Assembly (NCBI GenBank): GCA_937138295.1
Contig: CAKZOX010000058.1
Span: 1 to 47,713, forward strand
DNA: 47,713 nucleotides
Origin: an uncultured Campylobacteraceae bacterium
GTDB taxonomy: Bacteria; Campylobacterota; Campylobacteria; Campylobacterales; Arcobacteraceae
Reading direction: 5' to 3'
Made by a program: the position numbers and the translations under genes. The notes beneath the pieces were generated by a model that was not told where the DNA came from, ran no database searches, and saw only the letters and a list, made by a program, of their open reading frames with translations. Positions 4,508-36,072 of the stretch are shown here, in pieces (within the stretch, counting starts at the first letter, position 1; each line of letters begins with the position of its first letter).

Positions 4508-4771
4508 ATGAGAACAGCTTACAACCTATTATTTATTATACTTTCACTTCCTTTAATTATAAGTGCATTTCTATTAAGGTTTATATTCGCCACAATATGA
4601 ACTATGTATGTATTAATTAATTGAGTTTTATTTATATTTAATCGTGAAGTGTGATATAAGGTAAATGATATATTAGCTTGATTATTTGCTTGAGAAGTTA
4701 GAAACTGAAAGATAAGCAATATTCAAGAATATAAAACTCCTAAACAAAGAGAATCAAAAGATTTGACATAA
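4508..4771 (+). CDS. Small membrane protein, 87 aa
   Basis: Two hydrophobic segments are visible: about residues 6-30 (NLLFIILSLPLIISAFLLRF) and 33-46 (GTMYVLINGVLFIF). A charged cytoplasmic-type tail follows. It is probably an inner-membrane protein with two spans. The -35 box of the next promoter overlaps its stop codon. Confidence 0.55.
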
Positions 4772-4790
4772 AAAATATATACTATATAAT
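4763..4790 (+). promoter_or_regulatory. Promoter TTGACA-N16-TATAAT of HNH leader 1
   Basis: TTGACA 4763-4768, 16-bp spacer, TATAAT 4785-4790. The predicted start (+7) is G4797, exactly the first base of segment A of the leader RNA. Confidence 0.85.
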
Positions 4791-4796
4791 ATAATA

Positions 4797-4887
4797 GACT
4801 AAATCTAATATATTATATAGGCAAAAAAGAGTTTTTAAGCTATTAGATTTAGTCGTCTATACAATATACTTAAAGACTCTTTTTTGC
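4797..4887 (+). ncRNA. Interleaved (A-B-T-A'-B'-T') leader RNA upstream of HNH gene 4902
   Basis: Pairing segments, in order: A 4797-4810, B 4809-4820, T 4821-4839, A' 4841-4854, B' 4857-4868, T' 4869-4887. A/A' is 14 bp perfect, B/B' 11 of 12, and T/T' 19 bp with one G-U. T/T' contains A6/T6 tracts and so can act as a bidirectional terminator. Its loop is complementary to the RNA 5' end in circularly permuted order. T' ends 14 nt before the start codon at 4902. Confidence 0.8.
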
Positions 4888-4901
4888 TGGAATAAAACAA
4901 A

Positions 4902-5597
4902 ATGAAATATACAAGAAAATCAATTAAATGATATGAATGACTATATTCAGTAGATACTCAATGAAATATTTATATTGATAGAGTTCCCAAAAAAAATAAA
5001 CAACAAAAACCCAAGAAAAGTAAAAACCCAGAATTTGAAAAAAATACAAATCCAAAAAAAATAAATCTCCAAAGTGAGAGAAAAATGAAAAATTGAAAAA
5101 ACTGATGAGGTTATAATTTTGTATGATTTTCAAGAGAATGAAAATCTAAATATTTTTTGGTTCACAGATTAGTTGCCGATGCTTTTTTATATAATAAAGA
5201 AAATAAAACACAAATTAATCATATAAATTGAGTAAAAACTGATAATAGAGTTGAAAATTTAGAGTGGTGTACTTCAAGCGAGAATATAAAACACGCAATA
5301 AAGACCTGATTAATTAAGCATAAAAAATGAAAAGATAGTCCATTGTATTGAAGAACTCCAAAGAATATTCTCAAGTGAAAAGATCATCCATATTTTTGAA
5401 AGAGATGAAAAGAAATGCATAATGCTAGAAAGGTAGATCAATATGATTTAGATTGAAATTTTATAAAAACTTGGGATTCTATAATAGATATTAAAAGACA
5501 TTGATTAACAAAGAGTAATAGACTGTCCGAATGTTGTAAATATAAAAATCAAACTTGTGCTGGTTTTTATTGGAGATACTTCTCGGAAAAATTTTAA
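4902..5597 (+). CDS. NUMOD4/HNH homing endonuclease
   Basis: The product has 231 residues. Residues 1-20 carry a NUMOD4-like start (KSIKGYEGLYSVDTQGNIY). A Lys/Asn-rich insertion follows, then LVHRLVADAFL, NHINGVKTDNRVENLEWCT (the HNH core, with TGA as the motif Gly) and SSENIKHA. A C-terminal NUMOD1-like region (VDQYDLDGNFIKTWDSI) follows. These are hallmarks of free-standing phage homing endonucleases that nick or cut unoccupied sites. The insertion at about residues 35-60 contains a segment also found, in another reading frame, in the gene at 4057. A 36-bp duplication begins at its 3' end. Confidence 0.9.
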
Positions 5598-33793: not shown

Positions 33794-33821
33794 TTGTTAT
33801 TATATAAAAATTAAGTATAAT
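33794..33821 (+). promoter_or_regulatory. Promoter TTGTTA-N16-TATAAT of HNH leader 2
   Basis: TTGTTA 33794-33799, TATAAT 33816-33821. Predicted start G33828 is the first base of segment A. Confidence 0.75.
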
Positions 33822-33827
33822 CTAAAA

Positions 33828-33912
33828 GCATAGAATTAAATGATTTGCTATTATAGCTTTTAGTTGAGTAGGTTTCTATGCAAATCAGCCTATTCTACTA
33901 AGAGCTTTAATT
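33828..33912 (+). ncRNA. Interleaved (A-B-T-A'-B'-T') leader RNA upstream of HNH gene 33921
   Basis: A GCATAGAA (33828-33835), linker TTAAA, B TGATTTGC (33841-33848), T 33855-33872, A' TTCTATGC (33874-33881), B' GCAAATCA (33880-33887), T' 33889-33906. T/T' is 18 bp with two G-U pairs and one mismatch. A' and B' overlap by GC in the T loop. T' ends 14 nt before the ATG. A frame without ATG (33835-33942) also crosses here and is probably chance. Confidence 0.75.
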
Positions 33913-33920
33913 TTTATAAT

Positions 33921-34493
33921 ATGGAAATATGGAAAGATATAACTTGATATGAGTGATTATATCAAATCAGCAATTTTTGAAGAGTTAAAAGTTTAGAAAG
34001 ATATATCATTAATTCATTATGAAGAAAATGCTTTATTAAAGAAAGAATATTGAGAATAACAATTAATAAATGATACGAATGTATTAATTTTACTATTAAT
34101 AATAAAACTCATAGTAAAAAAATACATAGATTAGTTGCTAAATCTTTTATTATTAATCCTGAAAATAAGTCAGATGTAAATCATATAAACTGAATAAAGA
34201 CAGATAATAGAGTTGAAAATTTAGAGTGGGTTACAAAATCAGAAAATGAATTACATAAATATAATATTTTGTGATATAAAAATTTTTTTCAAACTAATCA
34301 CCCTTTTAAAGGTAAGTTTTGAAAAGATAATCATTTAAGTAAAAAAGTATGATTATATAAAAATTGAAAATTAATACATATATATTATTGAATTAGGGAA
34401 GCTGTTAGAGAAAGTAACTTTTGTGAGAATTCTATAATAAAAAGTTTAAAAAAATGAATTTTAATTAAAGGTTGCAAATGGAATTATTTATAA
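33921..34493 (+). CDS. NUMOD4/HNH homing endonuclease
   Basis: The product has 190 residues. NUMOD4 start EIWKDITGYEGLYQISNFGR, HNH core KKIHRLVAKSF, then NHINGIKTDNRVENLEWVT and SENELHKY, and a C-terminal NUMOD1-like segment (GIREAVRESNFCENSIIKSL). The central GIKTDNRVENLEW stretch is almost identical to that of the gene at 4902, so the two are close paralogs. It is preceded by the interleaved leader RNA. Confidence 0.9.
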
Positions 34494-35206: not shown

Positions 35207-35234
35207 TTGCAATAATAATTAAAAGTTATATAAT
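35207..35234 (+). promoter_or_regulatory. Promoter TTGCAA-N16-TATAAT of HNH leader 3
   Basis: TTGCAA 35207-35212 (just after a stop codon) and TATAAT 35229-35234. Predicted start 35241-35242 is the beginning of segment A. Confidence 0.85.
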
Positions 35235-35240
35235 AGATAG

Positions 35241-35332
35241 AGCTAAAGGAATTAAATATCTCGCTCTCAATTTAAAACTCATATTTATCGGTTTCCTTTA
35301 GCGAGATAGCCGATAAATATGAGTTTTTTAAT
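35241..35332 (+). ncRNA. Interleaved (A-B-T-A'-B'-T') leader RNA upstream of HNH gene 35342
   Basis: A GCTAAAGGAA (35242-35251), linker TTAAA, B TATCTCGCT (35257-35265), T 35275-35291, A' TTCCTTTAGC (35293-35302), B' AGCGAGATA (35300-35308), T' 35310-35326. T/T' is 17 bp perfect and followed by TTT, a strong terminator. Its 18-nt loop contains A'B', the reverse complement of the 5' segment in permuted order. T' ends 15 nt before the start codon. Confidence 0.85.
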
Positions 35333-35341
35333 AATATAATT

Positions 35342-35917
35342 ATGAAAAAATTAATTATCAGACAATGAGAAATATATAATATGGTTAAAATTATTAATGA
35401 AGTTGAACCTAAATGAAGCCAAAGAATATTTCAGTGTCAATGTGAATGTTGAAATATAAAAAATATACAATTATGAAATTTAAGAAATTGAAAAACTAAA
35501 AGTTGTGGATGTTTTCAGTGAAAAACACACGGTATGGAATCAAGCAGAATTTATTACATTTGGCATAGTATGAAACAAAGATGTAAAAATATTAATAATA
35601 TTGGTTATAGTAATTATGGTTGAAGATGAATTACTTATGATAAAAAATGGGAAAATTTTGTATGATTTTATGAAGATATGAAAGACTGATATGAAGAACA
35701 TTTAACAATAGATAGGATAGATAGCAACTGAAATTATTCTAAAGAAAATTGTAAATGGGCAACAAGTAAAGAACAAAATAGAAATAAAAGAAATAATATA
35801 TTATTTAAATGAAAATGTTTATCTGAATGGAGAGAATTTTTATGAATAACAAAGGGAAGATTTGATTATTTAAGATATAATAGAAAATTATCTCTAGAAG
35901 AAATTTTCTATATTTAA
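35342..35917 (+). CDS. AP2/HNH-type homing endonuclease
   Basis: The product has 191 residues. FQCQCECGNIKNIQLGNLRN then SCGCFQGKTHG forms a zinc-binding N-terminus. HGMESSRIYYIWHSMKQRC, NYGGRGITYDKKWENFVGF and LTIDRIDSNGNYSKENCKWA, then EQNRNKR, are the signature of phage homing nucleases of the AP2/HNH (I-TevI-like finger) group. It is a different family from the NUMOD4 genes but shares the same type of leader. Confidence 0.85.
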
Positions 35918-35942: not shown

Positions 35943-36053
35943 ATGAAGTGTATAAATCAAAATGAGAATTATTCTCATAATAAATTCAATAAATCTGATT
36001 ATATTATCTGATATAAAGAATTTCAGCAAAATGGAGATATAGAAAAAGACTAG
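35943..36053 (+). CDS. Hypothetical small protein, 36 aa
   Basis: MKCINQNENYSHNKFNKSDY and a short end; it terminates inside the bidirectional terminator. Function unknown. Confidence 0.35.
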
Positions 36054-36072
36054 ATTTTATTCTAGTCTTTTT
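36043..36072. terminator. Bidirectional terminator between convergent genes
   Basis: AAAAAGACTAGA/TCTAGTCTTTTT, the same stem as at 18413, serves the plus-strand operon and the minus-strand cell-wall hydrolase. Confidence 0.9.

Follow-up and report, generated by a model that had tools for sequence, protein, structure and literature searches.

Leaders with three interleaved, conserved pairings upstream of HNH endonuclease genes in phages that read TGA as glycine: an RNA family with the layout of an attenuator

Attenuators that combine an intrinsic terminator with a 5' antiterminator, such as those of the trp/pyr, T-box and preQ1 types, consist of a promoter, a short leader with two competing pairings, a U-run and a gene, and the phage leader described here has this arrangement too, its two pairings being predicted to compete. 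However, the putative antiterminator of the latter is the 5' end of the RNA, it pairs with the loop of the terminator rather than with an arm, it does so in permuted order, and it comes with no known ligand, leader peptide or protein. The P4 CI and P1-P7 C4 immunity RNAs are phage leaders with two short complementary segments, located upstream of early genes, which cause premature termination; they are processed and then work in trans on copies further downstream. The present leader has similar segments and a similar position before putatively early genes, but here it is the terminator's own loop that contains the complement. A structured RNA directly 5' of an HNH gene is also known from HEARO (omega RNA), which precedes the IscB HNH nucleases; different from that case, the proteins encoded here are homing endonucleases of the NUMOD4/HNH_3 and AP2-HNH types, the RNA is about 90 nt long, and replication genes carry it too. 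Lastly, H-type pseudoknots and kissing loops show the same interleaving of two helices, whereas our leader has three interleaved helices, a contiguous X'Y' segment and a conserved UUAAA strap.

The window, i.e., the whole stretch of DNA that was analysed (47,713 nt, positions 1 to 47713), decodes TGA as glycine. The leader under study occupies the following positions, where X and Y are the segments that the earlier note had called A and B, and a prime marks the complement of a segment:

35207 to 35234, plus strand: promoter-like TTGCAA-16-TATAAT, a consensus match only, with the -10 hexamer ending 7 nt 5' of X
35242 to 35251, plus strand: X, GCTAAAGGAA, at the predicted 5' end of the RNA
35252 to 35256, plus strand: linker TTAAA, conserved within subtype A
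35257 to 35265, plus strand: Y, TATCTCGCT
35274 to 35293, plus strand: T, 5' arm of a terminator-like hairpin capped by an invariant GG and a U.G pair
35293 to 35302, plus strand: X', inside the T loop
35300 to 35308, plus strand: Y', inside the T loop, with AGC common to X' and Y'
35308 to 35327, plus strand: T', 3' arm of the hairpin, containing an invariant GCC
35324 to 35329, plus strand: six consecutive U where the hairpin ends
35342 to 35917, plus strand: AP2-type HNH endonuclease gene (191 aa, TGA read as Gly) without a Shine-Dalgarno sequence

The two loop pairings reported earlier, of 10 bp for X (35242-35251 with 35293-35302) and 9 bp for Y (35257-35265 with 35300-35308), are perfect and lie where they had been placed, and their complement is indeed circularly permuted, with TTAAA separating the two segments and GCT common to both. 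As for the hairpin, the perfect pairing of T with T' stands, and its length has to be revised from 17 to 18 bp (35274-35291 with 35310-35327; 20 with wobbles); T' ends at 35327 and the ATG lies at 35342, with a spacer of 14 nt rather than 15. The gene matches PHROG 374, HNH endonuclease (E 2.1e-58), and no Pfam family, so that its HNH assignment derives from PHROG profiles only. Downstream of it, near the turn from plus- to minus-strand genes, positions 36043-36072 hold a further terminator-like hairpin (AAAAAGACTAGA..TCTAGTCTTTTT).

The same layout had been said to recur, with other sequences, at 33794 and 4763, where we find these elements:

33794 to 33821, plus strand: promoter-like TTGTTA-16-TATAAT of the second leader
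33828 to 33906, plus strand: second leader, subtype A, with X GCATAGAA, TTAAA and Y TGATTTGC
33855 to 33872, 33874 to 33881, 33880 to 33887 and 33889 to 33906, plus strand: T, X', Y' and T' of the second leader
33921 to 34493, plus strand: NUMOD4 and HNH_3 homing-endonuclease gene (PF13392 and PF07463 over cut-off)
4763 to 4790, plus strand: promoter TTGACA-16-TATAAT of the third leader
4797 to 4888, plus strand: third leader, subtype B, without TTAAA and with TATTA linking X to Y
4797 to 4810 with 4841 to 4854, plus strand: X and X' of the third leader, 14 bp
4809 to 4822 with 4855 to 4868, plus strand: its weaker Y and Y' (12 Watson-Crick pairs, one G.U, one A.C)
4820 to 4839 with 4869 to 4888, plus strand: its T and T'
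4902 to 5597, plus strand: HNH_3 endonuclease gene, 231 aa (PF13392 over cut-off)

The gene after the second leader begins at ATG 33921 (NUMOD4 start MEIWKDI) and not at TTG 33864. This leader has one internal mismatch in T/T', and part of its T can also pair with a segment 5' of X. From T' to the ATG there are 14 nt at 35 kb, 14 nt at 33.8 kb and 13 to 14 nt at 4.8 kb.

When both strands of the entire window were scanned for the order X-Y-T-X'-Y'-T' without use of gene positions, the three highest scores fell on precisely these loci (57.7 at 35242, 53.6 at 4797 and 38.7 at 33828), which bears out the recurrence. Six dinucleotide shuffles of the whole window, the control proposed in the earlier note, reached at most 34.6, below all three loci and at the level of the next-ranked real matches (about 33 to 35); the three loci are the sole outliers of the scan, their minus-strand images being the identical pairs. 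All three leaders lie on the plus strand, with a TATAAT promoter ahead of them and an HNH gene directly after them.

Further contigs were gathered by means of DNA patterns that spell HNH/NUMOD4 motifs with TGA for glycine, and also via a Gracilibacteria genome, and were scanned in the same way without gene positions. About 20 distinct leaders of the X-Y-T-X'-Y'-T' plan were found in phage contigs that read TGA as glycine. The main subtype, A, has the form GC-X-TTAAA-Y-GC and is present in L243, L374 (the same place in L382), L109 (L380), L107, L127 (L390), L334 (L384), L339 and L346, and additionally, via the covariance model described below, in G379 and L119; subtype B, with an A-rich T and no TTAAA, is found at 4797 of the window and in L101, L339 (two copies) and L348; a third form is present in L386 and L162. 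A single phage may hold several different leaders, with three in the window, three in L339 and several in L384. A scan match at 6609 of L101 was set aside, as no gene follows it. At 10925-11004 of L384, equal to 8115-8194 of L334, a promoter and a U-run accompany a leader-like element that scores 38.3; no ORF follows for about 450 nt and no tRNA was found there, just as a tRNA search of the window and six other loci gave no match. No leader of this plan was found with HNH relatives from other phages, a protein search of viral contigs with the 33.8-kb HNH protein gave no match, and a DNA search of named phages returned chance-level matches only. Where an HNH gene overlaps its upstream neighbour or directly adjoins it (9154 in the window, L105, L108, L141), there is no leader.

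The earlier note had proposed that the pairing is conserved while the sequence is not, and the comparison of the leaders agrees with this. In the 11 subtype-A leaders, 98.6% of the X and Y positions are paired with the leader's own loop versus 45.9% with swapped loops, the former value being partly due to construction, as the segments were picked for pairing, so that the shuffles and the blind matches are the independent tests. In the T stem, RNAalifold finds 13 of 16 pairs changed on both sides; at its top, two G-C pairs are invariant and one U.G pair is nearly so. Conservation extends to the UUAAA linker and to T's cap, GGU...GCC. A covariance model was built from the T stem alone, without X/Y pairing, and run blind. 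Among 353 genomes of the Gracilibacteria class it identified one new member, G379:C107, with both helices intact (X GCTAAACGA / TCGTTTAGC, TTAAA, Y TTAAGTCGC / GCGACTTA). Run on another 0.6 Mb of HNH flanks and phage loci, the model recovered the new member L119; its one other match, L134, duplicates a leader of the training set. L119 has the same X as the 33.8-kb leader, Y and T covary, and the X and Y helices are intact. A covariance search, as had been suggested earlier, yielded in all two further members, each with both helices preserved. Moreover, the helices that are interrupted contain 17 G.U against 4 A.C oppositions (binomial p ~0.007), an excess that favours pairing as RNA of the leader strand. 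The comparative evidence supports the view that the leader is a structured RNA under selection; it represents a real RNA family, which probably tunes the output of the gene that follows.

With regard to the genes served, a hairpin with a paired loop scoring at least 28 lies upstream of 22 of the 59 HNH-like ORFs, of 11 of the 939 others and of 0 of 998 shuffled sequences (998 ORFs; Fisher p ~2e-21), figures in which the HNH-like label, taken from a regular expression, is rough, with some of the 59 being false, and many of the contigs had been fetched through HNH genes. The link to HNH genes is strong. It is not exclusive, and a specificity for HNH genes was not borne out: the subtype-A leader of G379, in a Gracilibacteria genome, precedes a 209-aa gene without HNH match, and looser relatives, in which the loop of a 5' hairpin complements that of the terminator, stand before a primase gene (L381), a replication initiator gene (L388) and a YopX gene (L389). 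We accordingly take it for a leader type of phage units, presumably early ones to judge by their functions, and HNH cassettes carry it too.

TTGxxA-16-TATAAT, as a consensus match only, is present at all three loci of the window, and TATAAT ends 5 to 8 nt 5' of X in 9 of the 11 subtype-A leaders. This spacing predicts X at or next to the 5' end of the RNA, in line with the transcription start expected there in the earlier note. Furthermore, at least five consecutive U lie at the 3' end of the hairpin in 27 of 29 leaders, the exceptions being a weak run in L107 and four U only in L243, compared with 2 of 54 control genes in the window, and the layout of promoter, terminator and gene is thereby well supported.

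On this basis, the best reading, to which we give even chances, is that the 5' leader of the HNH mRNA is a phage attenuator in which the start of the transcript serves as antiterminator. Its own promoter would give rise to a structured RNA of about 90 nt, starting at X and leading to an intrinsic-terminator-like hairpin (T/T' and U-run) about 14 nt before the start codon. X, and then Y, would pair with the emerging X'Y' before T' is transcribed, and this pairing would tie up T and its loop in another fold, allowing some polymerases to read past the U-run into the gene; timely strand invasion by T' would instead produce the more stable T/T' hairpin and end transcription after about 90 nt. The balance of the two folds may set a low, tunable output of early genes, with mobile HNH genes carrying the control inside the cassette. 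Both termination at the U-run and an anti-terminating role of the X/Y pairing are what this layout leads us to infer. In growing transcripts of five leaders, the computed folding is dominated by X/X' (-12.6 to -16.8 kcal/mol) until about 10 to 15 nt of T' have been made, and thereafter by T/T' (-20 to -35 kcal/mol); the X and Y duplexes together amount to -17 to -24 kcal/mol, comparable with T/T' near the stop point. These computed energies fit a co-transcriptional switch in which X/X' would form first and T/T' would displace it late; together with the folding order they fit a mutual exclusivity of the alternative pairings, which itself comes from geometry only. The folding switch suggested in the earlier note finds agreement, then, in energies, folding order and the terminator-like T/T', while several observations speak against it, the weak U-run of L107 and the four U of L243 among them. 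T/T' is the minimum-free-energy fold and the clear winner at equilibrium, because of which a simple strong terminator is also conceivable; moreover, the invariant GG/CC and U.G cap beside the loop, like the fixed UUAAA, points to a definite docked fold that contains the T hairpin, in place of a switch between exclusive states or in addition to it.

Such a fold, in which T/T', X/X' and Y/Y' would coexist as a compact knot with the UUAAA strap against the GGU/GCC cap, could stabilise the terminator or protect the 5' end, and the outcome would be a short, stable RNA with hardly any HNH mRNA. The cap and the strap lie at the same end, the RNA is predicted to begin at X, T/T' is the preferred fold, and in the primase and replication-initiator relatives the loop of a preformed 5' hairpin could kiss the terminator loop with its stem unopened. 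The spacer between Y and T of L109, however, is just CC, which by geometric reasoning would not let both helices form in full at once, save with T opened at its base; the coexistence of all three helices at full length was dropped for L109 on account of this linker, and we consider the docked arrangement unlikely. Quite unlikely, in our judgement, is an element of translation or mRNA stability, with a hairpin just beyond the ribosome footprint that would shield the 5' end or delay initiation. The distance from the end of T' to the ATG is mostly 13 to 16 nt and Shine-Dalgarno sites are practically absent from the window phage (1 of 57 genes), as this would have it, but distances of 7 to 9 nt occur in L109 and L334 and of more than 20 nt in the replication-gene leaders, and the U-run is a terminator hallmark for which such an element has no need.

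The resemblance to the immunity RNAs raises a further alternative, namely that X'Y' of the terminated leader of about 90 nt pairs in trans with X-Y of the nascent leader that this unit makes next, and halts its transcription, the units within one phage being kept apart by their differing sequences. Each leader does combine two short complementary segments with a termination-like site, one phage can carry several different leaders, as seen in L384 and L339 and in the window with its three, and pairing between leaders and one another's loops is poor. Against this, the T stems diverge too, so that the divergence requires no role in specificity, intramolecular pairing is expected to win, and there is no Rfam match; self-recognition in trans is, to our mind, very unlikely. 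We are as doubtful of a phage-wide attenuator family that would unite these features, with the 5' end threaded in permuted order into the terminator loop, a hitherto undescribed three-helix knot and, in addition, silencing of its own copies in trans; if it were true, the trans-acting knot would give each early unit or HNH cassette its own RNA specificity. An element acting as DNA, such as a cruciform, a nuclease target or an insertion scar, would suit the position at the edge of mobile HNH genes and the inverted repeats, which are present on both strands, but it sits poorly with the fixed promoter spacing, the constant use of the gene's strand, the 17:4 ratio of G.U to A.C, the U-run and the occurrence before non-HNH genes, and we regard it as extremely improbable.

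At the gathering threshold, the Rfam models, those of HEARO and P4 CI/C4 included, gave no match to the window, to the leader or to related contigs. A group I intron remnant, a HEARO/omega RNA and a known ribozyme were dropped for this reason, and the earlier remark that no described RNA class was known with this layout agrees with the Rfam result. A search of full-text literature, mostly without subscription papers, found no description of such a leader. The leader would thus be a new RNA class among the transcription attenuators, apparently undescribed.

The contig is probably a binning contaminant of its metagenome-assembled genome, since the HNH genes of the bin's own order (299 genomes) mostly read without in-frame TGA, which also makes that order uninformative here. 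The same bin contains a second phage contig that reads TGA as glycine, C144 (34.6 kb), with its own leader. Phages and prophages with code 25 of Gracilibacteria/Absconditabacteria have already been described (PMC10746230), and from the genetic code these bacteria would be the hosts of the phages considered here. They are largely uncultured and their gene regulation is hardly known, and the leader represents a defined, testable RNA family in phages that would infect them. It would show selfish HNH genes matching their expression to the early replication genes of the phage, and the permuted pairing of the 5' end with the terminator loop, the UUAAA strap and the GGU/GCC cap pose a clear structural question.

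Other leader types occur in the contigs that read TGA as glycine. A second type lies before HNH genes in L335 (minus strand, gene 4074), L340 (plus, 712), L341 (minus, 2510), L343 (minus, 8599), L316 (minus, 1467) and L391 (minus, 10769 and 12345). It consists of a short hairpin, GTAAT and then a hairpin with a loop of 7 to 9 nt that pairs with a segment some 10 nt ahead of the ATG, while conserved TCCCA and TTTATA lie in between; five of its loci had no Rfam match. A further type is found in L101 at 5722 (equal to L007), L162 (near 2140, minus), L392 at 3148 and 9475, L351 at 9876, L386 at 17733 (minus) and L390 at 1675 (minus), and features a conserved TAAATATTT..AAGTATTTA pairing and a terminator hairpin whose loop of 8 to 9 nt pairs with a segment 5' of it; the gene after one copy is a DUF7487 gene instead of an HNH gene. 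Finally, at the HNH genes 461 and 2348 of L389 (minus strand), one strand of the 5' hairpin TAATACAGG/CCTGTATTA can alternatively pair with AATATAGGG directly before the start codon, and in the leader of gene 461 the loop complement runs in linear rather than permuted order.
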